64,000 nt of DNA, taken from positions 11,535,703-11,599,702 of the forward strand of contig NC_049993.1 in NCBI RefSeq assembly GCF_000003815.2. Direction: 5' to 3'. Shown here piece after piece: positions 13,518 to 60,500 of the stretch. Below the pieces are notes generated by a model. It had not been told where the DNA came from. It was given only the letters and a program-made list of their open reading frames with translations, and did no database searches. Source of the stretch: Branchiostoma floridae (Eukaryota > Chordata > Leptocardii > Amphioxiformes > Branchiostomatidae). The translations under genes and the position numbers were made by a program. Each line of letters begins with the position of its first letter. Position 1 is the stretch's first letter.

Positions 13518-16500
13518 ACCCAAAACTATATCTCCATTTTTCATGGAGATAATAATGAGCTGCACAATAGCATCATAAGTAAAATTGACAGCCCACCTGA
13601 TTCAGCATAGAAAAAGAGGAATAAGGGTAAAATCAATACAATAATTCTAAAAAATTTCTAGTGCAAATTATCCTAAATGTAAAGTTCATGAGGTGGACAG
13701 TCATGTCCTACTGAAAGTTAACATACTAGTAGTTAGGACAGAAGATACCACTCCAGAACAGGGGTGTTAGAGATGAACCCAGCCCTACCTGTAGTGTGTC
13801 CTGTAGAGTGGTGTAACTGTGGTCAGCCTGCAGGGAGTTGACATAGAACTGGTGCAGTCTGCGGGTGTTGGTGACAAACTGCTGCGTGAGCTGCAGCTGC
13901 TGCCGCAACAAGTCATTCAGCGCCAGCACACTGGGACTGTAGCTGGTCATGGCTGGGACAGGAGAAACAGTACATAGTCAGGACAGCACACTGGGACTGT
14001 AGCTAGTCATGGCTGGGACAGGAGTAATAGTACATAGTCAGGACAGCACACTGGGACTGTAGCTGGTCATGGCTGGGACAGGAGGAACAGTACATAGTCA
14101 GGACTGCACACTGGGACTGTAGCTGGTCATGGCTGGGACAGGAGTAATAGTACATAGTCAGGACAGCACACTGGGACTGTAGCTGGTCATGGCTGGGTCA
14201 GGAGGAACAGTACACAGTCAGGACAGCACACTGGGACTGTAGCTGGTCATGGCTGGGGACAGGAGTAATAGTACATAGTCAGGACAGCACACTGGGACTG
14301 TAGCTGGTCATGGCTGGGTCAGGAGGAACAGTACACAGGACAGCACACTGGGACTGTAGCTGGTCATGGCTGGGACAGGAGTAATAGTACATAGTCAGGA
14401 CAGCACACTGGGACTGTAGCTGGTCATGGCTGGGTCAGGAGGAACAGTACACAGTCAGGACAGCACACTGGGACTGTAGCTGGTCATGGCTGGGACAGGA
14501 GAAACAGCACACAATCAGGACAGTTCTAGTACTTCACTAGCCTGGATACCATACCCCAACCTCAAAATTTATCTTTCGTGTTGGGGTCTGGCAGGATGGC
14601 TGTAGAAAGGTTCTCGAAGGCCCTTGATCAGAGGGAGGAGAACCTAGGATTGATGACCACTCACACCACAGGTAGCCAGCTACAACACACCACAGTTGGT
14701 CAGCAGGCTATCACAGTAGCGAATCAGGTACTAGTACTTAGTGGTCACTGTTATGGATTCAAAAAGTACAGTTGGGGGTGTTTAACCAATCATGGCAGGG
14801 GTGTAAGTACCTCCTGCTGATCCTGTGCTATTCTATTGGCGGAGTTTTTTGCCCACTTTAAGGGGCAAAATTGAGAAGAGTTCCTATCCCATCCGGCCAG
14901 ACCCCTGCACGATAGATACTTGAGATCGGGCTGGGGTTTGGTAACCCGGTGAGGCTAGTACTTCACAGGCAGGGACATTTTTCTTCTGACACTAATGTCA
15001 TATTCACTTGCACAGACAATGTACTCTCCAAGCAGAGGTTTGGCTCCGGCTGTTCTTTGACATTTTTATCAGGCTTTCTCTTTTGTACAGTTGCCTCGCG
15101 AGACATGAAGAAAACAGTACAAAATAGAAAGCCTGATAAAACGCCTAAAATAATGTCAAAAAACAGCTGGAGCCAAACCTCTGCTTGGATAGTACAGACA
15201 ATGTCTATTTCTGTTGTGTAAAAAAAAGATGATTAATCTACATGATCAACACACACAGTACACAGTCAGGGTTTTTCTAGTGTCTTAAAGTTTTGTGAAA
15301 ACTGTCTTTTTTTTTTACTTTCCTGCAGTGAAGAAAAGACATTTCTGTAAGAAAGCAGTCATTGAACTCGTGTGCTGAAAATTTCTTTTGCCAAAAAAAA
15401 AGGCTTGCTGCCCAAAAGATTTGAAGTACAAAAATGTAGACTGTTTTGTCAACAAAGTTAAATATTTTCTTACCTTCTAGTGCATCAGGGTTGACAACAT
15501 GTGTGGCTACTGGTGTGGGATCAGTGTACCCAGCACCATAGTGTGGGCCCAGGGCTGCATATCCAGACTCTGGGGAGATTGGGAGAATAGGCAACAACAA
15601 TATAACATACACCATTGGAGACCTGTCATGTTTTCTGCTTACAGAACACCATTGGTATTACAAATTGCTCAAACGTTTACTCCCTAATGTTTCTCAGTAA
15701 TAAGGAACTACATTTACAAAAGGTATCAGTTTTAAAAATATTTCTCAAATGTAAGCTTCATTAAAGTATCTTTCCCTGTCTTATTTTGAACAAATGTATA
15801 AATATGAGAGATACAAAGTAAGATTCAAAGGTGTAAGAACGATATGGAGAAGACTGTTAACAACCCCAGCACCCATACCTGCTGTCCACTGGTGCACCAG
15901 TCCTAACTGGTCCTCTACTGATGTTTGAACACCCACATCTGAAGCCTTGACAGCTTTTCTTGGAGGGGTCCGACTTCTGGTATGGCTTGTCTGACTGTCA
16001 GACACAGTGCTATCTGTTAGTGTTTTACTTCTGGTGGACTCACTGTAGGAATCTTCACTCTCTGTCTTCCTGGATCCTTTACCTCTTCTACTTCTGTCAC
16101 TCCTTGAGACATCTGTGTAAGACTTGCTTGGTGTTTCAGTGACTGTCTGTTCAGAGAATGTCTTTGATGACTCTGTCCCACTGCCCTCTTCAAAGGTCTC
16201 TGAATATGTGTCATCGGCGAGCACCTTAGCCTCATGTTTGCTCCCCATTCTCTCTGATATGGATTCTGTTGGCACTTCAGTATCAAAGTCATCCTCGTAG
16301 CTGTCTGCACCTTTGTTTTGTTCCTGTTTTTCTGAAGTCAACATGAGCAGCTCGTCCACAGTGTGTAAACCTTGAAGTTTTGGCCGGCTTTGCGAGCTCT
16401 CTGATTTGTCGCTTTTGTCTGATACGCTGTGTCCTAGTAGTTCATCCACTGTGTGAAGATTTAGGCGTGGGCCAATGTTCTCTGAGATTGATTCTGTGAC

Positions 16501-20474: not shown

Positions 20475-23400
20475 ATGAAGGTTTTGGTGCTTTTCGCTAC
20501 ATTCCTCAGCCTCTCGTTGGCAGAAGCGACTGTCTACGTGGATGAACGGTTTTCGGACGGTAAGATTTGGGCGATCTCGGCTGGGTGCCGGGGGGAGGGG
20601 TGGTAGGGGGAGGGTGGCGGATATGTGTAGCATTTTGTACCAAAACCTCGTGTACCTTTTTATATCGTACAGTTACTAATGTTCAATTCACAGAAGATAG
20701 CAGTCACATGTTAATCTGGAGTGCTGTGATCAAAATTTTCGTAATATACGGGTAAATACAAATTAGAATGTAACATGTTAACGTTACAGGTAAATTTGCA
20801 TCAGATTCAAAACCTGATCAGTTATATGGCAAGCCCTTTAATTCGAGCCAGAGTCACAGTTTTATGTACAAGATCACGTTTTCTAAGAAATTCTCAAGTG
20901 CTTTTTTTCTCAACTACTGATAGCTAAAGCCTTGTGCAAATTTCCAACATGATCTGCTCAGTGTTTGGAAGAAATCCTCAGTTTGCAATTGGTTATCAGT
21001 TTTGCGATCATTGATTGGTTCTGGGATTTGTAATGGTAACAGAGCAGAGTGTGTGTTTTAGAATTACTCTCAAGACTCTTATAAGACCTGTACAAAAAGG
21101 AGGGTCAAATTCCAGAGGCTTGACCTGAACTACTCAGTACTCAGTGGAAAATTTGTCTGCTTGGGCAGAGCACTTCCTTTTATATGCAAATTACTTTCCC
21201 AATCCTCTATAAGCCTATGCATTGTTCTCAAAATCTGCATAATTTGTTATCGCTATAATATTGCGAATTGTTGATAGATTAATTTGTGATATAATAAGTA
21301 AAGAAGCCATAGAACATCTGTGGTAGCAAAACTATAGTACTTCTACACGTATAGAACTAGCCTCGGATATAAAGTATTTGCTAAAATGTTGAGGAGTAAG
21401 AGCTTGTGAAAATGGAACAGTGCAAAACTGCAATGGCAGGTGTTGCTGTGATAGCTTTCCCATGGGAATAACTGGCTTCTGCATGTTTAATTTTGTGAAA
21501 TAACAGATGTCAGCTTCTGTGTTGACTTACAAATTTAAGTTTTGTTTGGTTAATGTTATCAGGTATTAATAAAGTTAATTGGTTACTGGGACAAACTGAA
21601 AAAGGTGGGCGTGTCAGCGGAAACATGTTTCACTACAAAGTAGAATATTGAATGGTATACTGTAAATGCAGAAATGTTCGCGGTGGATTAATTTTCGCGG
21701 TTTTTGCGGCGGCCGCTTCACCGCAAATTTAAAACCACCGCGAACATTTTTCCATAACAGTAAGAGATTACAGTGCATGGCGCTACCGCGAAATTAAAAC
21801 CACCGCAAAAAGTCCATTTTCCCGCTACCGCGAAATTAACTCCCCGCGAACTTAAATACATTTACAGTAATCATTTATGCAATTCAACTATGCTTTTATT
21901 AATTCATAAACAGAATGTTTGAAGATCAATTCTTCAGAATGTTACTTAGGTTGAGTTTATGAAAAGTAACTAGTCTATAAGTCACATGTTGAATTTCAAA
22001 ACTCAAATCAGTATTGATAGCTAGTGTCATATGCTGAAAATTACATTGAAAATAACATGAAGATCAGTCAAAGCCATTGACTCATTTAAAAAAAAATTCT
22101 TGTAGAGATGTTCTTTTGTAGTAAATATTGTTGCTGGTGCTCAATCGATCACTCATCATGCTTGTGTTGTCTTGATTTAATAACATAACGGCATAATTGA
22201 TCTGACCTGCCCCCACCCACTTCATGAATGGATATGTCCTTGTTATTATCACTTCATCAATCCAACATGTAGGTTATAACCTTGTCTTCATGTGACATCA
22301 ACTCACAAACCAGGACAGTCTATTGTGTTAGCAACCAATTATTTCAAACTTTAGAAGGACAGTGAAGTTATTAGTGAAAATTAGTGACGGCTAAGCCTGA
22401 AGTTTTGGAAAATGAATTGTTAAGTACCACATTTGTTGTAGATATACTCACATAATTCCCTGTGGACCATACCAAGAGGTTTGCAATAGTATAGTCGCAA
22501 AATTCATACATGACAAGAAGTATACAATACATTTTGTAAATGACTTCTTAAACCAACAATTAATTGCAGAGAGAGGCAAAAGAACCGAAGCTTTCTCGTC
22601 ATTGGATAGGATATATTTTGCTAAGCTTTGTTGTAGAATTCATTTCCTTAGAGGTTCATTTATTAGTATACTGAAGTTACTTCAGGTTGTTTGTTGTCCG
22701 CCCTGTTACAGAGGCATGGAAGGACAGATGGGTAGAGTCTAAGGCAAAGGGATCTGATGCTGGACCCTGGAAATGGTCTGCTGGCAAGTTCTACGGTGAT
22801 GCAGACCTGGACAAAGGTATGGACAAACATCCTCAGACTGGACATAGTGTGGATGAAATGAACTATGTACAAATGTATATTTGAAGCTATCTGCAATAAT
22901 GATTGTTGTTTTTGGCAATGCCTGATGGGTGGAGCCCGTTACAAGTTTCCTTCATTTTCTATTGGTATGTTGTTAATTTTTTTTATACTGGGTTCAGAGC
23001 AGGGCTATCCCCAGGACCCATCCTTCTGTCCAAAAATCAGAGCTTCATGACCCCCGAAACACAATGAAGATGTATTCTTAAAAGCTTATAACAACAGATT
23101 TAACAACAAAAATCAACAATATTGGCTCTCAAACAATGAGTGCAATGGAAAGAAACTCAAAGTAGGACAAAGCCCTGAGCCAGAGACAAAATGTGGCACA
23201 GTAAGAAGTAAAATACATGTAGATTTGTTGCTGAGCTGGTTTTGATTTTATCCTTGTCAGGTATCCAGACTGGACAGGATGCGAGATTCTACCACCTGAC
23301 CCACAAGATGGAGGAGTCCTTCAGCAACGAGGGGAAAACGTTAGTCCTCCAGTTCACGGTCAAGCACGAGCAGAAGATCGACTGTGGCGGCGGCTACATC

Positions 23401-26400
23401 AAGCTGCTGCCTTCAGACTTCGACCAGAAGAAGTTTGATGGAGACTCTAAATACCACATCATGTTCGGTAAGCCTGTTGTTTTCAGTTCTATACAACAGA
23501 TTCAGTCATCCAGAAATCATTTTATCTGATTTTACTATTTCTAACAGCAGTTTCATTGCACCTTGTTATCAGCAATTATGTCCTTTTGGCTTGTAGTCAT
23601 AAATTGGCTGAAATTTGATACAAATATTGTTTGATAATATGATAATAGATTACTTTGGTAATAGCTTAGAATGAATTTTCTTGACAGCAGTTTCAAGCTT
23701 TTTATTAGGCTGGAATGAAATTTTATCTTTTAGTAATAGTATGTTGTAATGTGAATGTTATGTTAAGTGTATGATTTCCTTGTGCCATATATGTTGTGCA
23801 ATGTAAGTGCAAGTGCAATGCAGACTCACCACTAGTTTTACGTAGTGTTCCTCATGAACTTGTGTCTGTCATTCTTATTCAGCTTTTGCTCTCTGCACCC
23901 TTGGCGACATCTCTGCCTCTCTTCTAACTAAGTCATGTGGTAGCCACACAGTAGCTTGTGATGTCTTTTGGTGTACTAAACAAGTCGGTCTTGCTTAGAA
24001 CCATTTCTCATGAGATGTAGCTTGGCAAAGCTTCACTGATTACTACTATTACATTGAGGTATGCATCAGAAAAAGTAGTGGTCACAAATGTGATGATATG
24101 TATTCAAGACTCAAACAAGAGGATAGTATGGCATTTTTTTTTGTATATGTTTCTGTACTGTCAAGATGGGAATTTTTAAGCAGAATTTTTCAGGGATTAA
24201 GGCTTGTAGTGATGCTTTTTAGCAGAATTTTTCTGGGAAGAAATTGTTCAATTCTTCTTACATTCACATAAAGTTACTGCTCTCTATTCCTTGAAGAAGG
24301 GCAGTTTCAGAACTCAACCCAGCTATTGGGTCATTCAATCCCATCTGTGACACTGTCACTGGAGAAAACACATACTGTACTTCCAACCCAGCTGTCTTCC
24401 ACCTCTAAACTCTGTCTGTCCACACCTATCCAGGACCTGACATCTGTGGATATGATAAAAAGAAGGTCCACGTAATTTTCAACTACAAGGGCAGCAACGT
24501 TCTCATTAACAAGGACATTAAGTGCAAGGTGAGGCTGCAATGCACACACGTGGGCACAAGGGGGCAGCCCATGACTGTTGCTGTTAGTGTTAGAGAACCA
24601 TTTGACGATTCTGAAAAAAATCATGTTGGCTCATTTAACGTTCAAAATGTACAAAAACGCAAAATTGTTCTCTACACCAACAGGTTGTGGTTGCTACTCT
24701 ACCCCCTTTACACCCCCATTTTTGTTTGTTGATGAACTGAATTCCCCCTGCAGGCCCCGACATCTGTGGTCCTGGTACAAAGAAAGTTCATGTCATCTTC
24801 AACTATAAGGATAAGAATCACCTCATCAACAAGGACATAAGATGCAAGGTTTGTATGTCCTGTTAGGACTCCATGGAGGATCCGTTCAAAGACCATACAA
24901 AAACACCTAATAGAGTATATACTGTCCAAAACTTCTTACAGTTTACTAAACTTGTGCAGTTGCTGGGGTAACTTTTGTATTGAGCATCTTTGAATCTCTC
25001 CAAATATTAAAGGAAAGTTTAACTTGAAACTTCAACAAAGGTCACTGTGATTTGCAGCGTAGAATTTATAGACTGTAAATAAATATAAACATCTTACCAT
25101 AGCAAATTTTGGTAACATTACGTTTGCAGAGTAGAATCTACAGACTGAAAGTTTGGTGAGAGTTGCTCCTGCTATACTGACATTACTCTGAGTTGGAATC
25201 ACAACAATGAACACTAGACATCCAGATGTGCAAAATGACAAGAGGGAAACCTTGGCATGCTTTCCCTAAACATTATGCCTATCTCTCCACAGGACGATGA
25301 GTTCACACATCTGTACACACTGATCGTGAAGCCCGACCAGACGTACGAGGTCAGGATCGACAACAAGAAGGTCGAGAGCGGCAGCCTGGAGGACGACTGG
25401 AACTTCCTCCCCGCCAAGAAGATCAAGGACCCCGACGCCAAGAAGCCTGACGACTGGGACGAGAAGGAGTACATCGATGATCCTGAGGACGCCAAGCCTG
25501 AGGTACGGGAGATTTGGGGATGTTCATAAAAACATGACATTTACATGTATTACTGCTTTATGATTGGACTGTTTTAACTGTGCACTCAAAACACAGTGAA
25601 AACCTTTCAGATCCTACCACAAAATGAAATCCCCGTGAATACAAATGAATTTACAGGTCAGCACATCCTCTCCTGCATTAAAAGGGATGTCCACGCTATC
25701 TACATATAGAGCTTTGGGTGGGCACATTGGATGCATGATTCTAAGTCATTATCAACAGACCAATGGTAATAAATCATATAGCTAGAAATGTTACACTACT
25801 CCAGTCACATATCAGTCACGGTTTCTTTTCCAGAGTAAGAAAAGGCACTTATGTGACACTAGAGTACAGCACTTAGCTTTGTCACATAGTAGAGTTGAAT
25901 ACTCATCAATATTTGGTAGGTTTTTAGCACCATGTTGGATAGTGTCCAACCATTTTCCCGATCTGTTTCTCTGTGTAGGACTGGGACAAGCCCGAGCACA
26001 TCCCCGACCCTGATGCCACCAAGCCTGAGGACTGGGATGATGAAATGGACGGTGAATGGGAGCCTCCCATGATCGATAACCCTGAGTACAAGGTGGGTGG
26101 CATTCTCAAACTTTCCTATGGATACAGACACCTTCTGTGCAACATATAGTTTCATAGATACTGAAAAATGTTAAGAAAAATACTCTGTGGTTGGCACAAG
26201 TGCAGTCACTGAAAAAAAGCAGACTTTGTGATGAGCTCATGTTGTTAAGTATTTAGTCCACACTCATAGAATTTTGATAGAAGCATACACAGAAACAGTA
26301 CTCTTTTGTCATAAGTGTGCTAGATATGCTCCATTTTGAAGCAAGGGGAGTATTGAGAAGGTCTTATTACTGAAAGAAAGACGGTTGAACAAGAATTTCA

Positions 26401-28064
26401 ATACAGGAGAATTAAGGAAAAAGATAAAGGTAGACTGCCCTCACTAGTTTTGTTACTGCCCCAAGTTTTGCGAACAGAATGCTCACGTCCCAGGAAGTAT
26501 ATATTAGTCTGACCAGACTGAATTTCCCCTCCACAGGGTGAGTGGAAGCCCAAACAGATCAAGAACCCCGGGTATGATGGGAAATGGATCCACCCCGAGA
26601 TTGACAACCCAGAATACACAGCAGACTCACTCATCTACAGATACGAGGACATCGGCGCGGTCGGCTTCGACTTGTGGCAGGTATGTCGTGTTGTAGTGAA
26701 ACATGCGAACAGCAGAGCTTCAGACACCAGCGACTTTTTTTGTACACAAAGGGCTGAAAAAGTGTTGACTGGTGTTGAGGCAGTTCTGTAACTTCTGGTT
26801 ATAGTTTGGGATGATATATTGCAGGTTTTTTTACTTGAAAAGTTGAATAGGAAGCAGGCTGAATAAAAATTCTGACTCGAAGCTATGTGACTCCATTGCC
26901 CACCTAAAAAAGGCTAGGGTCGGCTGGCTTTTAAATGGTCCTTTGGTAAACAGGAAACACAACANNNNNNNNNNNNNNNNNNNNNNNNNNNNNNNNNNNN
27001 NNNNNNNNNNNNNNNNNNNNNNNNNNNNNNNNNNNNNNNNNNNNNNNNNNNNNNNNNNNNNNNNTTGAAGTTTTCCTCCTCCATTCTAGGTGAAAGCAGG
27101 CACACATTTTTGACAACATCCTGGTCACAGACGATGTAGACCAAGCAGAAGAGGCGGCCAAGGAATTGTGGGAAAAAACAAAAGATGGAGAGAAGAAAAT
27201 GAAGGATCAGCAGGATGAGGAGGAGAGGCAGAAAAGAGAGGAGGAGGAAAAGGCCAGGAAAGATGGTGAGTTTTCACATTATGGTTCTCTTTTACCTGTC
27301 ATGGTGTCAGAAATATGCCAGACACAAAGCTTAAATGTAGTCATTGGAATCTATCTGCAACAGTGCCACCTGACAGAAGTGGTAAGCACTGCACAGCTTT
27401 CTGGTCTGCTGCATTAGCCATAGAATTTTCTCCTTCAGTTGCTTTTGATATTGTGTTACCTTGTAGGTAGCTGAGGAAAAGGACATTATTTGATCCCATG
27501 CCAAGTCATCCCTGTGCTGCCAGCAGTCTTTTTGAAGAGAGGCGTAGAGCCAGTGACCCTTTTATTTGTATCAGTGACACGTTGTATGAAGCATAAAACA
27601 AGCTAATACACTTTTCGAGATGACTAGGGATAACCTGATGTGTTTGGTCGAAGACTCCATCTGTAGCAAAGCCACATTGTACTGCTGCTAGCTGCCTGAA
27701 AAAGCCTCATGCTCAAATGAGGATGACTTTTTGTTACCTTTTTTTAATGAGCTCCTGTAGTAGTAGTAATTAGTTTATTCATTGATAAAACATGAATCAG
27801 ATCGGCCTTGCAGTAAAAACTGATTTACAATCAACTTCTACAGTAAAACCAATGCAACAAGTTATCATTACAATATGTACAGATAATGTTTACTTGTTAA
27901 TAACTGCTGTGTTTGTGTCCACAGAAGAAGATGAAGAAGAAGAAGAGGAGGAGGAAGATGAGGAAGAGGAGGAAGATGAGGAGGAGGCTGAGGAGGGAGA
28001 TGCTGAGGAGGAGGAAGAGGAGGAAGATGCATCAGATTCCACAGCTGAAAAGGACGAGTTGTAA
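20475..28064 (+). CDS. CALR: Calreticulin, ER lectin chaperone, with alternative exon 4
   Basis: Coding exons: 20475-20559, 22712-22816, 23261-23467, then either 24434-24528 or 24754-24848, then 25293-25502, 25979-26092, 26537-26680, 27090-27265, 27925-28064; about 424 residues (human 417). Order along the protein: signal peptide (1 to about 17, cut near LAEA); N-domain with [17 protein letters not shown] and KYHIMFGPDIC, which carry the glycan-binding Tyr, Lys, Tyr, Met and Asp and the disulfide cysteines; P-domain with three DPDA-KPEDWD repeats and three GEW-P-NPEY repeats; an acidic calcium-storing tail; and a C-terminal KDEL retrieval signal before TAA. Exon 8 as assembled has one extra base near 27100-27107, 40 bases after the gap, giving an in-frame stop; this is probably a gap-edge error. 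Calreticulin binds monoglucosylated glycans and buffers calcium in the ER lumen. Identity certain. Confidence 0.97.
21660..21867. mobile_element. 208-bp MITE with CTGTAAATGC ends, copy 1
   Basis: Begins CTGTAAATGCAGAAATGTTC and ends CATTTACAG, both next to TA, as expected for a Tc1/mariner-type TA target duplication. The inside is a set of CGCGGTGG / CCACCGCGAA inverted motifs. A second copy of almost the same length is at 50347-50553. In calreticulin intron 1. Confidence 0.75.
24434..24528 (+). CDS. CALR: Calreticulin alternative exon 4a (divergent copy)
   Basis: 95 nt, acceptor CTATCCAG, donor AAG|GTGAGG, entering in phase 1 and leaving in phase 0. It encodes [20 protein letters not shown] and then [11 protein letters not shown]. 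The glycan-binding Asp and both Cys are kept, but the Gly-Pro-Gly-Thr turn of other calreticulins is replaced by Gly-Tyr-Asp-Lys. It is mutually exclusive with 24754-24848 by frame. Confidence 0.88.
24754..24848 (+). CDS. CALR: Calreticulin alternative exon 4b (canonical copy)
   Basis: 95 nt, acceptor CCCCCTGCAG, donor AAG|GTTTGT, same phases as 4a, 225 bp downstream of it. It encodes [20 protein letters not shown] and then [11 protein letters not shown], closer to human ([16 protein letters not shown]). Joining 4a to 4b shifts the frame and gives a TAA near the end of 4b. Skipping both gives GGA-CGA-TGA at the start of exon 5. Confidence 0.88.
26965..27064. other. Assembly gap (100 N) in calreticulin intron 7
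   Basis: A conventional 100-N gap 25 bases upstream of exon 8. Its nearness explains why the exon 8 frameshift is suspected to be an assembly error. Confidence 1.
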
Positions 28065-38235: not shown

Positions 38236-39610
38236 GTAAGTGAAAACAAACAAATGTCGTCTTCCTGTGCCTTACATGTGAAAACAAGTGTGGCAGACAA
38301 AGGTGGTCTTCGACAGGGGGAGTCGCATTGTTCAGAAGTCAGCTGACCGCATTTAAAAATTAATACCTCGTCGGACAGTAGTCAAACCGGTTGTGTGGCT
38401 ATAGACTACAGACACAGTACAGGTAGTCTGGTCACGATAGTCTGTTCTTAGTGTTGTTGTTTGCGCTTTATACAAGTGGGCACAGCACTGACACGGTAAA
38501 GATCGGACTGGAGGCTGCACCCAATATTTGCAGACACAGTAAGTTGCGACGCATTTCCTTTCATTTAAGCGCACATGGTTTTGCCGTGCATGCATGAAAT
38601 ACTACATTATGTATTGTCAGGGACATTATACATAGAATACATGATATAGGAGTAACTAGACCGTGTTATTCAGCCTTGCTGGTGTTGAAGTTTGTAGAGT
38701 TTTTTCCTAGTTGAACACCGCCCATTGAGAGGTATAGACAGACTCCTTAACATGAAACTGGTTTAAGACGGGTAAGTACCCAGCTTAAGGACCCTCCCAA
38801 ACTATGCTTGTAAACAATAGATGCAACGTTATGACCTGTTGCAATGGGCCCAGGTGTTTTCTGGATATAATATAATGGTACAGTAGTCTGATGGTGTAAC
38901 ACTAAAACCACAGAATATCTGTTCTATTTGGGGACATGTTGTGAAACTGAACACCAGAATTTGTGCTGGATGAGATCATCATATGTTTTACAGGGTAATA
39001 GTTTAATGGGCCCTGGTCACGAGTTTTGTCCACTCGTTCCCAGTGTCTTGGTGTTATCAATAGTACAAATGATAATGTCTGTGGTAGTACATACATGTAA
39101 TCATATTTTCTCACGACACCCTCCACCACATTTTGTGTCTCCAGTACCTCCCATGTGTCAGGTAGAGAAGAGAAAAACATTTTATGTTGGTGTGTGACTA
39201 CAAGCTGTGTAGGTGATAAACTATCATGGCCAGTTGTGGGACCATCCATAATGTACTAGCATGTTGTAGTGGAGTAGTTTTTTTTAAAGGACTCATGGTC
39301 AAATTTTAGGGTTCTTGCATGTCCTTTTCCATAATTTGAAGGAAAGCGATCTTTTTCTCCCAAAATTCCTTGGGTGTTCCCATATTTCATAACAGGGTGG
39401 GAAAATTTGCACAAAGGCAATGCCTTCCTGAATTTTATATGCTGAATTTAGCTTAATACACAAACAGTTCTCCTGAATGTAGTGTAAAGTATTGTCGGTA
39501 TTGGCCCCTATATGTAGCCCCCGTTAAGACACTACCAGGCTGTGTGCAAGTCTCCTATTTCTGTCTAACTTTCTGTGTTTGGCCTTTTACAGGAATACTG
39601 ACAGAACAAC

Positions 39611-40597
39611 ATGGTACTCAGTTTCAGGATGCAGACAGCGCTGTTCCAGGCTGTCCCCTTCCCCCCTGTGGTCCTCTGGCTGGTGGTCAGCACGCTTCTG
39701 GTCGGCATCATCATATCTGTCCGCCGTCGGAGGTCTTCAAGAGCCCAGAGCCCGCGTGCAAAGACGGAGTGTTGTAACGGTACATCAGCGAAGAAGATTC
39801 AAACGGATTCCTACCACTCTGTAGAACTGTTAGGGACAAGTGCTGACTTGAGACTGACAATCAGCAAGGAGACCATCGATGTGCAGTGTGACTGTCACTG
39901 TTGTAACACTGATTTTCAGGACTTGGTAAAAGTGACATGCGCAGACAAACCGTTGGAAATTGTTCCGTTAGGTATGCGGTGTTATAAAGAACTCTTATGC
40001 ACATTGATCTTCATGTTGCTTTACGAAGTAGCATTCCATGTATTCTGGAGAGAGGACGTGCTTGTAGGAATTGCAGCCATCAAGTTTGTGCAGTTCATGA
40101 CAATTGTGTTAGGTGTCCTCTTCGCACACGTCTCCTTGGTGCAAACAGAAGATGGGCTAACACGCTTGGAGCTGGGATTGAGAGTCATCATACAGAACAA
40201 GCTTGTCTGTTTAATGAGTTATGTGGCTCTCGAAAGTATCCTACTGTACGGACGGGTTGCTGAGGTGATTGTCGAGGTCTCAGAAGATACCCTTTGTGGC
40301 ATCGTAGTTATTTATGTATGCATATACTCATCGACAATTGGCGTGATACAAAATATATGTTTACAACCTCTCTTCAAGTTCACGATCGCCACACAGATAC
40401 CCATCATTGTCATCTTAACAAACCTGATCATCTCCGCTCTGTTAAATACCTTCTTTCTCATCATGGCATGTTTGTGGTTGATGCTGTCTGTTACTCTGTT
40501 TGTTGCTGAGATTATTTCAGCCTTCAGACACATAGACCACCTCCACAAGTCTGTAGTACAGAAGGAATCGCTAGATGGCGTTATTATAAAGGTGTGA
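39611..40597 (+). CDS. Unrecognised multi-pass membrane protein (328 aa)
   Basis: An uninterrupted frame in one exon that starts 19 bases after a splice acceptor (39591-39592). The N-terminus has a hydrophobic helix at about residues 17-40 (VVLWLVVSTLLVGIIISV) followed by a basic RRRRSSRAQSPRAK stretch, so that end is probably cytosolic after the helix. A Cys-rich patch follows (CDCHCCNTD, about 94-102). Then come about six more hydrophobic segments at roughly 118-137, 141-165, 195-215, 222-245, 255-278 and 282-305, and a charged tail ending in KESLDGVIIKV. About seven membrane passes are suggested. I do not recognise a family; no rhodopsin-type DRY or NPxxY motif is seen. Polyadenylation signals are at 41275-41280 and 41294-41299. 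Confidence 0.72.
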   Translation: MVLSFRMQTALFQAVPFPPVVLWLVVSTLLVGIIISVRRRRSSRAQSPRAKTECCNGTSAKKIQTDSYHSVELLGTSADLRLTISKETIDVQCDCHCCNTDFQDLVKVTCADKPLEIVPLGMRCYKELLCTLIFMLLYEVAFHVFWREDVLVGIAAIKFVQFMTIVLGVLFAHVSLVQTEDGLTRLELGLRVIIQNKLVCLMSYVALESILLYGRVAEVIVEVSEDTLCGIVVIYVCIYSSTIGVIQNICLQPLFKFTIATQIPIIVILTNLIISALLNTFFLIMACLWLMLSVTLFVAEIISAFRHIDHLHKSVVQKESLDGVIIKV

Positions 40598-42511: not shown

Positions 42512-45500
42512 CATACCCAGCTGTTGGAGTGTCTGTGTGGTGTTCAGTGATGTCAGCTAGGGAGGGGGGAGGGGGGAAGGGAGAGAAGACAAAATCATTA
42601 TCAACAATGGTAGATCTTCTGTTTGGTACTTTGCTTAACCATTTACAAAATATCGCCAGAAAAGAATAGGTGTCCTTCTCAGTGTGAGTGGTTTAAAATA
42701 TACAGTCCCATGGCCTCACCTGAGGCAATTACTGTCGTATTGAGCTCACCTGAGTGGCACCGAATGGCAGCCACTCCAGACTTGCGATTTAGCCCCGCCT
42801 ATTGTAACCTCCTCACAATTCAGCCCCTGGCTGCGGGGAGGGAGTAGTCGGCCCACCCAATAACAATAACTTACATCTCGTTTTGGCCATGATGACAGCA
42901 GCTTGTACTCCTTGGAAGGGAACCCCTTGGAGTGGACGTAGTTCAGCAGGATCTCCAGCCTGGTGGATGCCAGGAACCTTCTCTGTAACATCTCTCCGTC
43001 CGGAAGCCTCACCCGGAGGTTGATGAGTTCTGTGCAGTCCTCAGGGGGTTCGTCAGGGAGGGTGTCTTCTAGCGATGCTCTCAAGGCCTGTGTAGGTTTC
43101 ACATTACGCATCAATTATCAGATAACAAAAAAAGAAGTAATATACATGTATTACATGTGGTTACATGGCTAAACTACAGATACATGTAGCATATGGGAAA
43201 ATGATTACCCAGTATTACTGGGAAAAATCTATTAGTTTACAAGACAGCAGAGGCTGCAAACTTACCATTGCACTGCCCTCTCTCTCTAACTCCCCGCTTG
43301 AACCATTGTTGCATTTAGATGAAATTTTTCAGTGCAGCAGATATAAAACCAGGTAGATAAATATCAAAGAAGGTTTGACTTGAGAATGTCCCACTGACCT
43401 CTCTCTCCTCCTTGGCTTCCCGAGCTTCCCTCTGTGCCCTCTCCTGCTCCTCTTTCTCCTCCTGTTCTTTCCGCCTCTTCTCCTCCTCCTGGTACAGATG
43501 GGGAAACAGATGGGTTTGAAAAAAGCGATATCAATCCAGTAAACTCACCGAACAGCCACTCTTACTGTGGTATGACCAGTGATAAGGACGAGGGCAAATA
43601 CTAACAAACAAAATGCTACAAGGAAATAAGAGTACTGGTAAATCAAATATTACATCATTATTTCTTTTTGAAAAATGTCTTCAACAAGAATAGCTTCTTT
43701 AGAAATTGATAGAGGAATGTAGTGAATGATAAAACTCAAACCAGCACAAAATCATTGCACTGTCATCTCATTATCAATCGAAATGATACTTTCTATGAAG
43801 AATGCTGTAAATACTTGAATGTTCTCTAATGAAAATGGCACTTGTTGCTGTGAAACATTAGATAAAATCACACCACACAACAATACACAAACGTGTCTGG
43901 AATATAATAGTGCTCTAACTTGTACAAGTCACCCATAGCTTACAGTATTCACAACAGTTTGACTTTCACAACAACATTGCACAAGACCTTGTACCTTAGC
44001 TCTATCAGCTGCCAGTGAAACCTGATATGCCTCATCCTGTTCTCTCTTCATCCTTTCTCGTTCTTCTCTCTCTGCCTGAGGGAACGAATGACACTTTCTC
44101 GCAAAAACAGACGAGCCAAACAAATGACCAGTTGTACATATCTAAATCAATGTTCTGCTAATGGCTAATAGAAAGGGCTTTGTTCATTTCTAACTTATCG
44201 GTGTATGTACCAAACATGAGATATGAAAAAACAGCACAACAATATCTGCATTGCAGTCAAGAGAAAAATACAACATTATACGTAAAATAACCTATTAACA
44301 CTTATAATGTGCTTTTACATCCACTGTGAAAGGGAATAAGAACAGAAAGCCTATCACATACTTCTTCCTGCATCTCCACCCTCTGGTTTTCTGTGAACAC
44401 GTCGGTAGCGTTGATCAACGTGCTCATGAGCTCATCTACTGTGTTGTTACCTGTGGACGGAAATCAGAGGAGCTTCACATACACAAAGCATCTGGATTAA
44501 TATACAGATACCAAACCCATAATGAATGATAACTACCGTACGGTTTGTGCAATTGTGGGCATATTGACTTTTACCATTTATAATAGAACAAACTGCCATA
44601 ACATTGCCTTTTTCCTCTTACTATTTAAAAAAAAAACACTTGTAAAAGTTGGATCATATCAACGTCATTGGTAGTTTTTTTTAAGTTTGGACATGCTCAC
44701 TTGAAAAATCTGACTTCCTTTTATTGTTAGGAAGGGCTCTTTACATCTGTTTCCACATTCAACTCAGGTGAAAACAAGAACCTTCAGTTCATGAGCCTTC
44801 AGTTAGGGATGTTTTCTACGATGGGACATAAACCAAAGGTTCCATGTTATGTTGTAAGAAGGAGGCAACACATCAAGCACCATACAGATCTCACCACACT
44901 TAACGGATCAAACCTCACCGAGCTTATACTTTCTGTAGTTACCTGGTGTGTTACATGGCTACACCTAAGGGCTTAGGTCCTAATTGGAAAAAGGGGCCCT
45001 GCAGGACAGTTCACGGGCTGTTTTGGGGCACTGTTGGGCATGACCCCTACGTGACCCTGTGAAACACGTTGCAGCTCCAAGGGTATCGGTCATCAGGTTG
45101 AATTAAAATGAACCTGGGACCCGGTAACAAATGACCATGACCTTGGGAACACTGAGGGGTACCACGTGTCCAGTTGTCCACCAGACTGGCACTACATCCA
45201 TGATGGGCACAGGTGCAAAGTTAAGGTTTACAAACAACCAACAACAAACAAACAACATGAAGTGTCTCACCATGCACCACCTTGAGGACCTCGCTGGCCC
45301 CTCGGTTCCTCATGACCAGCATCAGCAGCGGGTACTCGTCAGCCTTGTAGTTCCGTACTGTCTGCGCAGCCAAACTGCCGTACTGACGAGAGATGTGGCC
45401 TACAAACCTGACAAAACAAATGGAACATGTCACACGAATATGTTATCTACTGTAAATTTTAAAATATTTTAATTTTACACTGACCTCCCTGGCTCAAAAT

Positions 45501-48500
45501 CATAACATTAATATGCCTCTTCATTGTATTAATACTCACAGTGTCACACACACACACACACACTCCCTATACGGTTTAGTGTCTGTTGTTCCCCGTCTTA
45601 CGAGGGTTGGACGTACAACAGAATTATTTCAACTGTGATTTTGAAACACAGCAAAAACATCCTTTCCCCTGTTATCATTGTAGTTTGAATTCCTTATGAA
45701 AATTGATTTTATAGTATCTCAACACATTGTTATTAGGAGAAGGGGCGGCAGCCGCTGTATGAAGTTCCCTATCTAGATCTAAGGCAATAATTTTCTTAGT
45801 CTTTCTTAACATTTTTGTATAAGGAAAAGTCAATATCCACATTTAAAAGAAATCATAGGGATCCTCATGCTAAGTTACTCTGGCTGAGATAACAACAGTT
45901 AAACTGTCCTTGTATGTGAGGTGCCTACCTTGCTTTGTTACTATCAAAAGTCATGTCCCAGGCAAATATCAGGTAGTGTTGGGACATGTAGGACACGATG
46001 CTCTCCCTACAGAGCACCTGGGAACAGAAGATGTTACTCTGTACACTCTGGTCATGGTGCAGGTACAGGGCTAACAGCTTTCTCTGGAGAGGGAACAAAA
46101 AAAGATATCAGTGATAGTTTCATCAGGCTCTGTAAATAACTTGATAACAAAACTCTTTCTATACAACCAATGGATTATTACCTGGTAGATAACTTAGAGC
46201 TGTTCATTGTTTACGTTATGGCATAGAAGGCTTACGAATACATATTGATTCTAAGGCACTACTGCTTGTACTTGTAGTACATCAAAAATTCAACCTGTAA
46301 TACAAATATCAACACATAGGTGGCACTGCTGTACAGGTGGCACAGTTAGTCCTTGAGTGACAACAGCTACCTTTAGACTGGGTGAGACTGTACTATACTT
46401 ACATCCCTGGCAGGTTTCTGGAAGGCCTCTTTCATGGCATCTTCAAGGGAGCCTATGTAAAACATTGGGTGGCATTCGCCATACCTGAGGGAGGGGACAC
46501 AACAAATGCAAGCTTGCTTAACAACAAAATGAAGACAAATGAGTCAAGAATTCCCAAAAAAACTGAAACTGGAAAGAGGTAAAGTGGTCGTGAATTTTTT
46601 ACCACTGCCACTGGCTGAGCAAAATATTTAGGACATTTTTAGAATTAACGTACAGACTTCTTAACTTTCGAGAACTAGAGATGACAAAAAAGTGCTGGTC
46701 ATTTGCATCTCTGACCTTCATAGACGTGTTGGTAGTTTGCATTTCCCCCACCATCTTAGTGCATTTTCTCCCATTTTCACATTTCCTACAATCTTTACAG
46801 GTAAGGACTTAAAGTGGGTAAGTTACTAAGTTGGAAGTCTTTACCTTTCTGTAAACTCAGTGGTGAAGTGGACTGATGCATTGTACTCATCATCACAGTT
46901 GTCAGGAACTGTAGAACATAGGATAAATAATGACATAAGTGTGTGTATGTTGTAAGCTGTATTGTGTACATATGATTGGTACATATAAGTCAGTATACTA
47001 TGAAACTTCTATGTACATGTAAGTGATGATATAAATATACCAGTACAGAAAGTTCAATTCTTGCATCATAATGATGTCCCTAAGACCGAGAAATTATCAT
47101 CCATATTTGCCAATATTCTGCAAATGCATGTAACTTCATTCACAGATATTGGTGGTAATGTTACAGTGGCACTACATCTTTCATGGTTATAGACAGTGTT
47201 CAAGCCTATGAAGATTATCTTCAAAGATTTCTTGTGTTTTTGTGTTCAGGCTATTGTACTCACTAAGGGGCTGCGGTTTTCTTGTAACCACGTCAGTAAA
47301 ACTCAAGTCGTTGTCATCTACAGTAAAAGAGTCGCTGGCGTCCTCAAAGTCTTCTGTGCTGGACCCGCTGGCATGGCGCTGTCGCCTCTCTTCTTCTACC
47401 TGAAGAATGAAAATATGGTAAATTATAGAATAAGCTGTAAAGTCTATACATACACATACCGCAAAGAGGACTTTTTGGTTACTAAGTATTTGGGAACAAA
47501 TGTTAAAAAAACAAACATTGGCTTTATTTCACCAAATTTGGCCTTCAAAATACAGGAAATGGTGTTTCAGAGGGTAATGATCACACCAGCATCGCTTACC
47601 ACATGGCTTTGCTACACTAAGATGCCCCTACACTGTGAAAAATCCTGTGTTGTACCTACCCATGTACTGAACCTGACAGGTATGTGTTGTACCTACCCCT
47701 GTACTGAACCTGACAGGTATGTGTTGTACCTACCCCTGTGCTGAACCTGACAGGTATGTGTTGTACCAACCCCTGTACTGAACCTGACAGGTATGTGTTG
47801 TACCTACCCCTGTACTGAACCTGATAGGTATGTGTTGTACCTACCCCTGTACTGAACCTGACAGGTATGTGTTGTACCTACCCCTGTGCTGAACCTGACA
47901 GGTATGTGTTGTACCTACCCCTGTGCTGAACCTGACAGGTATGTGTTGTACCTACCCCTGTGCTGAACCTGACAGGTATGTGTTGTACCTACCCCTGTGC
48001 TGAACCTGACAGGTATGTGTTGTACCTACCCCTGTACTGAACCTGACAGGTATGTGTTGTACCTACCCCTGTGCTGAACCTGACAGGTATGTGTTGTACC
48101 TACCCCTGTGCTGAACCTGACAGGTATGTGTTGTACCTACCCCTGTACTGAACCTGACAGGTATGTGTTGTATCTACCCCTGTGCTGAACCTGACAGGTA
48201 TGTGTTGTACCAACCCCTGTACTGAACCTGACAGGTATGTGTTGTACCTACCCCTGTACTGAACCTGACAGGTATGTGTTGTACCTACCCCTGTACTGAA
48301 CCTGACAGGTATGTGTTGTACCTACACCTCCAGGTTCATGCTGACGGGTGTGTGATCTCACTAACCGTCAATGTCATCTGCAGGGGGAGGGGGGTAACGA
48401 CACCATAGTACTTAACCTGGAGTGGTTATCACGTGTCAGCTAATGAGCGACTTGTGCACAGGATATTGTGTACCTATTGCTCAATGAATGCGGTGGAAAA

Positions 48501-54500: not shown

Positions 54501-57500
54501 CACAATACAATAGGTTAATTTCGGATTGCACTGACTCTGTCTTGTTCATATAGCACTGATAGCATTTGTTTCAGTTTGTACTGAAGATGGCAGAAGGTCA
54601 CTGAAACGTGTCTTGTGTAATGAAGAAGACATTGTTCAACTGTCTACAGATGGACATTTCAACTGTAAACGGTAGGACTACAGTGTCATTCCTGTCAAGG
54701 ACTTTTGGTCCTGATGCCTGAAGCTATGAGGAAAACAAATGAAGTACCTCAGACCTTGACATGATGCTTGTACTGTAATACTAATAGACCCAAGGCCATA
54801 CATGTATCGCTACTCTAAGTGTCAATGTGATAGATTTTCTTTCTCTGAGTCTGACACAGCTGTGTTTACATGTTAGCTTGTCCTTAATAAATATCCTCTC
54901 TAACACTCAAATGCCAAAGTAGTTTTTTAAAATCTAAATTCTCAGATTTTTTATAGATTTTTCTTGAATTTCTGCATTAAAAATTGTCCTTTAATACATA
55001 TTATATTAAGTAATGTACCATTTATCAAGATACTTCTGTTAATTTGGTAAAATAATGTTCTTATTCCACAATTCTTTTTCCCTGCATAATGATTGTCGTG
55101 GCAAAAGTATGTGAAAAAACATTAAAACAAAAACAGCAAGAGATGAATACATCTCTGCACATTTCAATCATAAAGGTTTCTTTGTATTCATCACAAATGT
55201 ACATGTATATTGACATGACTGTTACAGAAATACCACTAGCAGCTTGCTGCCTGTCATATAAACTAATTATAAAGAAAACTCAATTATTCCTTGGAATATT
55301 CTCTTGTCTGGAGCGAACCCTTGTTTGAACCTTGACCTGGAGTACTTCCAAGTGATTACAAGATCAGTTCCTACAAGTCAAACGTCTCTCATTCTTAGTT
55401 TGTCCCGCTAAAAGTGTCAGCGCTAGCCTGGGGGGGTTTCACACGCTGTGCAATGACGTCACGCTACGAGGACAAAGCATAATCACTGGTGGGAGCCCAT
55501 AAGCTTGGACAGACAATACCACTTCTCAATGACTACCTTTGATGTGCTAGACGCCTTTTATGTGGAAGCACAGTGTATAAGAGTTTCTCAAAGAATAAGT
55601 CAACTGGAAAGTAAACATGGCTTTCTCAAATTATCATGCGGTTTCTTTGAAATAGTTTGTGACCATCTTCAACAAGTTTGTGAAAATGTTACGTGAAACG
55701 TTAGTTCATGTTACACCCACTACAAGCTTTAAATACCTGCACCTGAATAAAGATCCTAAAACTAACTTCATGCTGCTTGATCCTATTATGCTGACTTTGA
55801 AACAAAATCAAAGGACTTTGGACTTGAGTATGTCATCATAGCCAATTCTATCTACATGTACCATCTGCGCTATGAGCGATTGTTTACATCCGAGGTATTT
55901 GACGACTGGTAGGCAAAAAGACCTTCATCTTATTTCTACCATCTGATTTTTCAGATGACACATCTCTAATACAAGAAGCCTAGCACATGAAACTGTTGTG
56001 TAGGTCTGTCTTCTGTTGCCGTATGGCACGTTTCTTGAGTCAAATTTCCTGCCCAGTGTATTACTATGCCCATGCCCACCATTGCACTGGGAGAAGATGC
56101 TCCATGTTTTCTGGGGCACAAAGAAGCTGCACTCCACTATAGAATGTTCAGACAGGTGTTTGGGGAATGCTGTGTCTATTCAAATACCTTCTTTATACCT
56201 TTGCCCACGATTTTTGTCAGGCAAACTTGACAGATTAGTTTCAAATTTTGTCCATCACATACAGCAAAATCTGTTGATTGACAGAAAACGGGCACTGGCT
56301 AGAGCATTGGGAAGAACAGCAAATGTTGTACCATTAATGGAGATCTAAAACAATCAAACAAAGATCAGGGAAAATCATCTCGATAAAATCATCAGATGAT
56401 CTTCTACCGCCAACCTACCTACAGTACTGGTATCGTCTAGCATGACGTCCACCGTTCTTTCCCTGTACTCCACCTTGAACTCTAACATCCGAGGAGTGGG
56501 CCGCATCATCGGGCCCGCCATTACTGGTTCCCATGGCGACCCTAACGTGGACGTCCCCGCCATTGCTTGTAGTTGTTGTCCAACTACTGATAAGTCAGGA
56601 CTGGAAAATACATAAAAGACTAGAGTTCCACGAACACATACCTTTGCCAAATAATTTGTTATGTAGAATGATGTCTGTAGACAAATGCGTTACTCATTTC
56701 ATTTTCTTTATAATTAAATGCTTGGAGTTGGTTTATAAAATTTCGGCATTTATTATGCAAATTAGATACCAATTTACAATTAATTGATATCAAATTGTAT
56801 CAAGCATTACTTAAGCTATCAGCATACCAAAAATCATGATGATCCTTTGATCCATTCTTGACTTATTCTCTTTCAAAGTCTTTAAATACACCTCTTACTC
56901 TCTTCCCTCTTTCTCAGTTACATATGTGACAACTTTGATGAAAGTACTATAATGGAATGCAGTGGATTTATGAACTTTTCCTAATCAATTATGCAAATTA
57001 GCTGTTAACTTGCATAATAAGTATCACATTATATAAGTCTTCATTTAGGCTATCTACATGCCGAAAATCATGACGATCCGTCAACACGTTAATATTTTCT
57101 CATTAATTATGCAAATGAGAGCATCATTTGCATGATAAATATGTATTGACATTTCTCTCTTTCTCAGCTACATATGTGACAAGTTTTAAAGCCCTATCAT
57201 GGAATGTAGTGAATTTATAAAATATCCTCATTAATTATGCAAATTAGCTGTTGATTTGCATAATTGTTATCTGATTATGTAGGTCTTCACTTACGCTACC
57301 TACATACAAAAAAACATGATGATCCGTCAACATGTTCATATTTTCTCATTAATTATGCAAATGAGGTTACCATTTGCATAATTGATATCTGTCGACATTT
57401 CTCTCCTTCCCAGCTACATATGTGACAAGTTTGAAAGTCCTATCATGGAATGAAGTGGATTTATAATTTTTCCTCATTAATTATGCAAATTAGCTGCTGA

Positions 57501-60500
57501 TTTGCATAATTAGTATACCATTATGTAAGTCATCACTCATTCTATCTACATACCAAAAATCATGACGATCCGTCAACACGTTGTAGAGTTATTCTCATCC
57601 AAAGTTTGAAAGGAAACCGGCGCCTGCAGTTCAAGCATTACTTAAGCTATCAGCATACCAAAAATCATGATGATCCTTTGATCCATTCTTGACTTATTCT
57701 CTTTCAAAGTCTTTAAATACACCTCTTACTCTCTTCCCTCTTTCTCAGTTACATATGTGACAACTTTGATGAAAGAACTATAATGGAATGCAGTGGATTT
57801 ATGAACTTTTCCTCATCAATTATGCAAATTAGCTGTTAATTTGCATAATAAGTATCACATTATATAAGTCTTCACTTAGGCTATCTACATGCCAAAAATC
57901 ATGACGATCCGTCAACACGTTCACATTTTCTCATTAATTATGCAAATGAGAGCATCATTTGCATGATAAATATGTATTGACATTTCTCTCTTTCTCAGCT
58001 ACATATGTGACAAGTTTTAAAGTCCTATCATGGAACGTAGTGAATTTATAAAATATCCTCATTAATTATGCAAATTAGCTGGTGATTTGCATAATTGGTA
58101 TCTCATTATGTTTGTCTTCACTTACGCTACCTACATACCAAAAAACATGATGATCCGTCAACATCTTCATATTTTCTCATTAATTATGCAAATGAGGCCA
58201 TCATTTGCATAATTGATATCTAGCGACATTTCTCTCCTTCCCAGCTACATATGTGACAAGTTTGAAAGTCCTATCATGGAATGCAGTGGATTTATAAATT
58301 TTCCTCATTAATTATGCAAATTAGCTGTTGATTTGCATAATTAGTATACCATTATGTAAGTCATCACTCATTCTATCTACATACCAAAAATCATGACGAT
58401 CCGTCAACACGTTGTAGAGTTACTCTCGTCCAAAGTTTGAAAGGAAACCGGCGCCTGCAGTTCCAAAAAAGCCGCTAGGGGGCCCAAACTCACAGCACTT
58501 ACTCTCTGCCTTGAGGGCTATCTACCACTCAAAAATCATGATCACAGCATGTCCAGAACAGGAGATATCAAAAATTGAGGTTCTGCTGCAGTACCTTAGC
58601 AAGCCGCTAGGGGGCCCATTATCGAACTTGACCTTCGTTTTCCCGACCCCTACCCACCTACCAAATATTATCGGGATCCATCCAAGACTTCTTGAGTTAT
58701 GCTGTTAACAGACACACAGACACACACACAGACAGACTCACAAGCCCAAAACATAACCTTAGCCATTCTGGCAAAGGTAAAAAAATACCAAGTTTAAGTC
58801 TGAGACAGGATATATTGCTTCTAGTACACTGTATTACTCAAGTCTAAAGTTGAGGCATATTCGTTGTACGATTTTAATGCCATAGAATTTTAAAGGGACA
58901 GAACCAGCCACTGTCACATGGATCTGAGACAACCTCTTCTGTAAAAAGGTGAATTTTGCAGGACACATACACATGTATTACTATCCCAAGAATGCCCTCA
59001 GTTTGCAATCGTACAATGAACATAGGAAGAACTTTATTGCTCGACATTTGTACATGGTACAATGTATGGCAACGACTGTTACACAAAGTACAAAATAGGT
59101 GTATAATATGGACCTTATGCTACTATGCCAAAAACCAGCTTATGGAAATACATTTGTATAGCATTATTCATAACAAGCTGATCATTACTACATGAGAGTA
59201 TAGACTTTAATATGAGATTTTAAAAAAGAAACATATGTATATGTTTTCCTTCTCCTGCTGATAGAGTAAAGATGATGGAGGAAAAGGTAGCTTTCCTATT
59301 ACAACTTCCCAAATCTTGTGATTACCAGCCTAAACTTCTAACCTTCTTACAATTCTTCACAGAAACACAGCTTTATATTAAAACATTGTACACATGAAAG
59401 TTGGAGTTTCAAAACATGTGTATTGATGGAGATGGTGACATTACATATTACAAGTGTGATTTGTGTTACATGTCTCTTACCTTTCTACTAGTGGAGGGGG
59501 GACCTCAGGAACACTGGGTGCCTGTTGCATGGGTTCTTCTGGGAGGACTCCATTAATAGCAGCCTGGTATAGAAAATAATGTTTGTATCTAAGCATCAAA
59601 GTTTCAAACTACCATCTACTTTTTTTGTTTCTAAAGTTCACAGTTTCTGATTCATTACAAATGTTGTACGATGTAGATCTACTGTAGAAGCCATTTAATT
59701 GCACTTCCCATTTGCCGGCGTATTTCGTGCAATTATCCGGATGGTGCAATAATGCGAAGTTATCCAGCTGGACCGCACTGGTTTGGGATTCCGTACAATT
59801 AACAGAAGTGTGCGGTTATCCGTTGTGCAATTAGCTGGGTTCTACTGTATTACACAATACGTCGATGAAGGTTAGACATCCAGGTAAAAAGATATGCCAA
59901 AAAGCAGTTACTCAAGCAACTGGATGTGATTTTGGAAACGGAAATATTACTGTATTACACAATATTTTTATTATTACACAATTTCTTGCTGATTGGGTTT
60001 ATCAGTCGAGCAGGCTGATAGGAGCGGAACACCGCTTTCCCCCCTAATGCGTGCTAACGTGCATAAGCCTTATGTACGTAGGAGGGGAAAGCGGTGTTGT
60101 AAGTGTGTATTTCGAGCACTGATGTACTACAATGCTGCTGCAAAAAAGACAACAAGTCTACATGTCTTGCTGAATAAGAACAAACCCCAACATTTCAGCA
60201 ATCTTGTCTCTTCTTCTGATAGTGGCACTCAGTAAATTCATAACTTGACATTTTATTTGCCAACATCAAGATACATATTGGAAAGAGCATTTTTTGTGCG
60301 GAGGTGTCGTAGACAATAATGTCTGCTTTTATGATTTGAACTTCCACTCTTCATCACCATGGTTCAGTACAGGGTGACAAAAAGACAGGAGGCTCTGTTC
60401 CGGCTTCCGCGTATTCTTCCGACCTCGCCCGACTGCATCCGCTCATACCAACGCAACAAACACGATTTTCCGGAGAATTTCGCAGTACGCTACCAGAAAT

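Follow-up and report, generated by a model that had tools for sequence, protein, structure and literature searches.

Two tandem, frame-locked versions of a lectin-domain exon in a calreticulin gene of Branchiostoma floridae

The tandem exons Ab and 3 of the vertebrate splicing factor U2AF1 have an equal length of 67 nt, which breaks the reading frame, and encode segments with seven residue differences. Transcripts that contain both exons or neither of them run into stop codons and undergo decay (PMC5224494). Of the two, expression is higher for the exon whose splice signals are less favorable (PMC5224494). In OGDH, which encodes a calcium-linked protein, the tandem exons 4a and 4b are included one at a time, and exclusivity depends on branch points 25–41 nt from the 4a donor (PMC7969005). 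Exons IIIb and IIIc of Fgfr are mutually exclusive and exchange a segment of a folded domain; an Esrp-linked alternative splicing event of Fgfr is present in amphioxus too (PMC5703972).

The window analyzed in this report is a stretch of 64,000 nucleotides of the Branchiostoma floridae genome, and all coordinates refer to it. A calreticulin-type gene occupies positions 20475–28064 of the plus strand. Its product starts with a signal peptide, continues with the globular lectin domain and the P-domain, and terminates in an acidic tail whose last residues are KDEL. With exons 1–7 joined, the profile PF00262 scores 271.1 bits for the form containing exon 4a and 272.9 bits for the form containing exon 4b. 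The gene is whole, apart from one interruption of the reading frame in exon 8, which adjoins a gap of 100 N. Its exons and the intron separating the two versions of exon 4 are as follows:

20475..20559, plus strand: exon 1; start codon and signal peptide, GT donor, following codon split with exon 2
22712..22816, plus strand: exon 2; GT-AG borders, frame runs on
23261..23467, plus strand: exon 3; GQDAR segment, aligned to solved calreticulin chains
24434..24528, plus strand: exon 4a; 95 nt, open, GT-AG, further from human than 4b
24529..24753, plus strand: intron between 4a and 4b; 225 nt, the shortest intron of the gene
24754..24848, plus strand: exon 4b; 95 nt, open, GT-AG, nearer to human than 4a
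25293..25502, plus strand: exon 5; joins either copy and carries the TGA read when both are skipped
25979..26092, plus strand: exon 6; P-domain
26537..26680, plus strand: exon 7; P-domain, then return to the globular domain
27090..27265, plus strand: exon 8; frame break close to its start by three-frame reading
27925..28064, plus strand: exon 9; acidic tail, KDEL and stop

The coordinates given for the exon pair in the initial annotation are exact to the base, including the end of exon 3 at 23467 and the start of exon 5 at 25293. Exon 3 also encodes the residues that match Cys105, Tyr109, Lys111, Tyr128 and Met131. The frame break of exon 8 is confined to 27090–27112, and the gap spans 26965–27064. 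The break is explained either by an erroneous base bordering the gap or by use of an acceptor AG at 27098–27099, which keeps the frame and removes the VKAGT segment.

The presence of two neighboring 95-nt coding exons, as described initially, was verified in length, phase and open reading frames. Both copies have AG in front and GT behind. Identity between them amounts to 70 of 95 bases and 25 of 32 residues; exon 3 contributes to the codon of the first glycine in either 32-residue segment. The two peptides are recognized as similar by tblastn within the window (E values of 1.5e-12 and 7.7e-13). The segment aligns without gaps with the human and mouse calreticulin chains (3pos, 3o0v), and the residues matching human Asp135, Cys137 and Cys163 are found in 4a as well as in 4b, as had been proposed. 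Equal length (or a length difference divisible by three), matching frame and borders, and peptide similarity are among the features by which mutually exclusive exon pairs are recognized in PMC5740500, and these are observed for 4a and 4b.

Exon 4b had been regarded as the canonical version. This holds insofar as 4b retains 30 of 32 human residues compared to 27 of 32 in 4a. Exon 4a thereby matches human as well as constitutive exon 5 does (34 of the 40 codons compared) and better than exon 3 (45 of 69). However, 4b departs from the human sequence at residues 152 (Gly to Asp) and 155 (Val to His), and at both of these 4a has the human residue. Exon 4a differs from human at residues 139, 140, 141, 153 and 162 (Tyr139, Asp140, Lys141, Ser153 and Lys162).

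Inclusion of a single copy preserves the reading frame. If both copies are skipped, a TGA is encountered at codon 135 in exon 5, and if both are included, a TAA is encountered at codon 193 inside 4b; both stop codons are those predicted in the initial annotation. In the transcript lacking both copies, four exon junctions are located more than 200 nt downstream of the TGA. In the transcript with both copies, five junctions follow the TAA, four of them at distances above 200 nt. Transcripts with neither or both copies would, according to the common rule on downstream junctions, be subject to nonsense-mediated decay, and productive splicing would insert one copy at a time. Exons 4a and 4b are considered very likely to be a mutually exclusive pair, judging from their sequence and frame.

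Mutually exclusive splicing can be enforced by steric hindrance if donor and branch point are separated by less than ~50 nt (PMC7969005, PMC5740500). The 225-nt intron between the copies does not display such an arrangement. Its best ten branch-point-like motifs are at least 77 nt away from the 4a donor, as scored with an approximate matrix. The last AG ahead of the 4b acceptor is located at 24682, which suggests that the 4a donor and the branch point are separated by ~150 nt or more. Incompatibility of U2- and U12-type splice sites is not indicated either, none of the three donors concerned (introns 3, 4a and 4b) being U12-like. Nine short inverted repeats are present in this single species, one of which (24726–24740 with 24818–24832) spans the 4b acceptor. 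The two RNA folds calculated, again for one species, show no energy excess over shuffled sequences (z of 0.77 and 0.36). No clear mechanism that would bar joint inclusion is apparent in the DNA. This counts against exclusivity, and so does the statement that many highly similar neighboring exons are not spliced exclusively (PMC5740500). Exclusivity would instead be achieved by the frame lock together with decay, with regulation by trans-acting proteins. Among the nine donors scored with an approximate matrix, that of 4a ranks highest and that of 4b (gtttgt) lowest. This ranking does not imply that the 4a form prevails, because in U2AF1 the exon with the poorer signals is the commoner one.

The seven residue differences between 4a and 4b (human precursor numbering, 4a residue first) are Tyr/Pro at 139, Asp/Gly at 140, Lys/Thr at 141, Gly/Asp at 152, Ser/Lys at 153, Val/His at 155 and Lys/Arg at 162. 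They fall into the turn 139–141 past Cys137, the segment 152–155 around Asn154, and residue 162. At every one of the seven positions one of the copies is identical to human, 4b at five and 4a at two (152 and 155). As modeled by cryo-EM, calreticulin in the peptide-loading complex contacts the glycan through Lys94, Asn137, Tyr111, Met114, Ile130, Asp118, Asp300, Tyr92, Trp302, His128 and the Cys88-Cys120 disulfide (mature numbering, PMC9365787). Five of these contacts are encoded by exon 4, i.e. Asp118, Cys120, His128, Ile130 and Asn137, corresponding to residues 135, 137, 145, 147 and 154 of the precursor. All five are identical in 4a and 4b. The earlier suggestion of a different glycan preference is weakened by this identity, as far as the contacts named in PMC9365787 are concerned.

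A calreticulin-calreticulin contact that recurs in crystals and was termed a 'molecular zipper' is described for the human crystal structure (PMC3057994). It pairs Asp71 with Arg162, Arg73 with Glu167 and Val50 with Pro139, and connects Lys142 and Asp165 to the SQDAR segment (PMC3057994). Two of these positions, 139 and 162, are switched between the amphioxus copies; Lys142, Asp165 and Glu167 are retained and the SQDAR segment reads GQDAR. The exchange of Arg162 for Lys leaves the charge unchanged. Human Val50, the partner of Pro139, seems not to be conserved in exon 2. The zipper is a crystal contact with an unproven role in cells and may not matter there. These three points weigh against a functional meaning of the switched zipper positions.

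Because residues 139 and 162 belong to this published contact, the favored interpretation of the switch, offered tentatively, is that it tunes self-association or the contact to clients or partners, whereas glycan binding would be affected slightly, if at all. Such a slight effect is possible through residues 152, 153 and 155. Of the two consequences suggested initially, a different glycan or a different client preference, the latter is the better half.

An effect of the switch on sugar binding itself is rather doubtful. It could arise from a shift of Asn154 by its neighbors 152, 153 and 155 or from the edge of Cys137 by way of the turn 139–141. Asn154 contacts the terminal glucose in mouse calreticulin (PMC5094443), as does the equivalent mature Asn137 in the peptide-loading complex (PMC9365787), and the copies differ on either side of it. 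The turn comes after Cys137, and the disulfide formed by Cys137 is in contact with mannose (PMC7687155). The contact residues named are nevertheless unchanged throughout the exon, and each copy has the human residue in a part of the region concerned (4a at 152 and 155, 4b at 139–141 and 153).

If the surface is exchanged and the sugar pocket spared, an old regulated switch may allow one chordate gene to produce two calreticulins that differ in the surface for calreticulin-calreticulin and client contacts, perhaps an ER chaperone and a bacteria-binding form. This wider reading is speculative. According to PMC6359024 and PMC12292289, which cite the original work, recombinant calreticulin of B. 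japonicum binds bacteria and serves phagocytosis. Isoforms are not mentioned in the passages of these two papers on B. japonicum calreticulin. If the reading is true, the gene is a natural experiment on calreticulin self-association and on glycan-independent binding of clients. One gene could then yield two forms of a chaperone that is usually constant. With two versions of a lectin-domain exon maintained by selection, it would become possible to test, within one gene and one animal, which residues outside the sugar pocket contribute to client choice, self-association or microbe binding.

The whole of these observations is likely explained by an old duplication of exon 4, followed by splicing of one copy at a time with decay of the other products, in which the sugar contacts are kept and the surface is switched. 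In an alternative explanation the exon pair controls the level of calreticulin: one copy makes the protein, the other one acts as a decoy, and joint inclusion leads to decay. Several features are compatible with it. The transcripts with both or neither copy have early stop codons ahead of several junctions, the length of the intron separating the copies would permit splicing of both into one transcript, and the opposite ranks of the 4a and 4b donors (by the approximate matrix) could give mixed inclusion. Conservation of residues is, however, not required of a decoy, whereas 4a has 27 of 32 residues in common with human, retains the listed sugar contacts and has accumulated mostly synonymous changes. 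Control of the level is thus an unlikely function of the pair.

The divergence of the two copies is strongly biased towards synonymous sites. The proportion of changed sites is 0.84 for synonymous (pS) and 0.128 for nonsynonymous positions (pN), corresponding to 15 of 17.8 and 10 of 78.2 sites, respectively (Fisher p = 1.4e-8, rounded counts). The 25 base differences are distributed as 2, 7 and 16 over codon positions 1, 2 and 3. A chance likeness of two exons is ruled out by this contrast. The introns beside the copies (200 bases on each side) do not align better than shuffled sequences; the alignment score was reached by 58 of 200 shuffles before the copies and by 21 of 200 after them. Compared to human exon 4, pS is 0.69 for 4a and 0.60 for 4b, using a human CALR DNA sequence that was verified only via its translation. 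Since synonymous sites are saturated, a date of the duplication cannot be obtained. Saturation, the low pN and the lack of alignment between the introns together point to an old duplication with retention of both copies. Comparison of the copies hence shows an ancient tandem duplication of exon 4, both products of which were, by all signs in the sequence, retained as coding exons. The initial description of two frame-locked coding exons, of which one keeps the frame and none or both give an early stop, is borne out, with constraint on both copies evident from pS and pN.

Evolution without selection was simulated for eight different distances, and 20,000 runs were made for each of them. A run was counted if the exon stayed open with at least 25 base changes and at most seven residue changes. 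No run at any of the eight distances gave this result. An unselected relic across the whole divergence is ruled out by this simulation. Selection at the protein level is accordingly indicated for 4a and 4b through most of the time since duplication. The outcome differs for a short unselected branch of 0.15–0.2 changes per site, where 21% and 6% of the runs remained open with at most seven residue changes. These short-distance runs leave room for a recent relaxation of constraint on 4a alone. Five derived changes in 4a and two in 4b are numbers too small to discriminate.

It is accordingly improbable that one of the copies (4a being the likeliest candidate) has become a relic, either unspliced or spliced at noise level. 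The turn of 4a is altered where the human and mouse chains agree with 4b, and the short-branch simulations would accommodate a relic of recent origin. On the other hand, synonymous change is saturated, residue changes are few, splice sites are intact and stop codons are absent, and the model without selection fails in every run over the whole divergence.

A search with the 4b peptide of the genome, which comprises 513.4 Mb in 431 contigs, found two places only, 4a and 4b themselves (both of the two candidates scored). The 731-base region that comprises the pair matches itself alone at full length. Six other matches are short and stem from an interspersed repeat, a fragment of which is present in the intron that follows 4b. 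The repeat fragment is located at 24919–24994 and has six short matches in the genome with 78–90% identity. No third copy or remnant of the exon was detected above chance in the window (next best E value of 0.093) or in the genome search. A second gene of the calreticulin family, elsewhere in the genome and calnexin-like by our reading, has one match to the exon 4 segment. A duplicate of the exon was not found in this gene either, as tblastn of its 9.9-kb region gives a single match. Its exon border is probably different, with similarity ending after GVETK. A mis-assembled haplotype had been named as one finding that would speak against the pair, and the genome searches returned no allelic contig. 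An assembly artefact that places two haplotypes or two genes side by side is highly improbable: the gap at 26965–27064 and the adjoining frame break do reveal imperfect assembly nearby, but the exon occurs at two adjacent places only, the 731-base region is unique at full length, and 25 differences in 95 bases with unalignable introns are too much for alleles.

Upstream of the calreticulin gene, two exons on the minus strand at 13792–13959 and 15475–15570 encode a DUF4614 domain (PF15391, above cut-off). Further upstream of these exons with respect to their strand, an open start (MFQRRPGVG) is present at 20128, ~350 bases from the calreticulin start codon in head-to-head orientation. The exons and this start are inferred to form one gene. 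The human gene C19orf44, which carries the DUF4614 domain, adjoins CALR3, the human testis gene calreticulin-2. In view of this adjacency, the DUF4614 gene and calreticulin could represent an ancient pair of divergently oriented genes.

Elsewhere in the window, an open reading frame at 42746–43114 of the minus strand contains a UBX domain (Pfam, 45.2 bits) and presumably resembles FAF2-type proteins. A single open frame of 331 residues at 39602–40597 of the plus strand has many hydrophobic stretches and no Pfam match at an E value of 0.05. Tandem arrays are located at 13924–14523 (60 bp, 10 copies), and 47646–48329 (37 bp, 18.5 copies). A 246-bp unit forms two further arrays, apart from each other and with 2.7 copies each, at 56903–57582 and 57734–58410.

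Calreticulin is an ER chaperone of high conservation. To our knowledge, calreticulin isoforms of vertebrates and plants all originate from separate genes, and the vertebrate CALR genes have one version of the exon 4 segment. A second, testis calreticulin gene of human has been named calreticulin-2 (PMC10902585). The initial annotation knew of no calreticulin with switchable exons, and the matches listed in the open-access literature contain no report of one. As far as that literature shows, calreticulin is thus a new member among genes with mutually exclusive pairs; RefSeq may list both forms.

The architecture itself is of a known kind. As in Fgfr (PMC5703972), a segment of a folded domain is exchanged, and Fgfr is a receptor tyrosine kinase whose gene is unrelated to calreticulin. 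OGDH shares with calreticulin the tandem arrangement, the inclusion of one copy at a time and the link to calcium (PMC7969005). It differs in the position of the branch points, which are close to the 4a donor in OGDH, whereas the best branch-point-like motifs are at least 77 nt away in amphioxus calreticulin by the approximate motif matrix. U2AF1 is the closest precedent and agrees in nearly every respect (PMC5224494). Exons Ab and 3, like 4a and 4b, are frame-breaking tandem exons of equal length (67 nt compared to 95 nt), differ in seven residues and yield stop codons if both or neither are included. The isoforms and regulators of U2AF1, a splicing factor of vertebrates, have been established by experiment, whereas 4a and 4b belong to a lectin chaperone of the ER and are known from sequence alone. 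With 4a and 4b, frame-locked exon pairs extend to an ER lectin.
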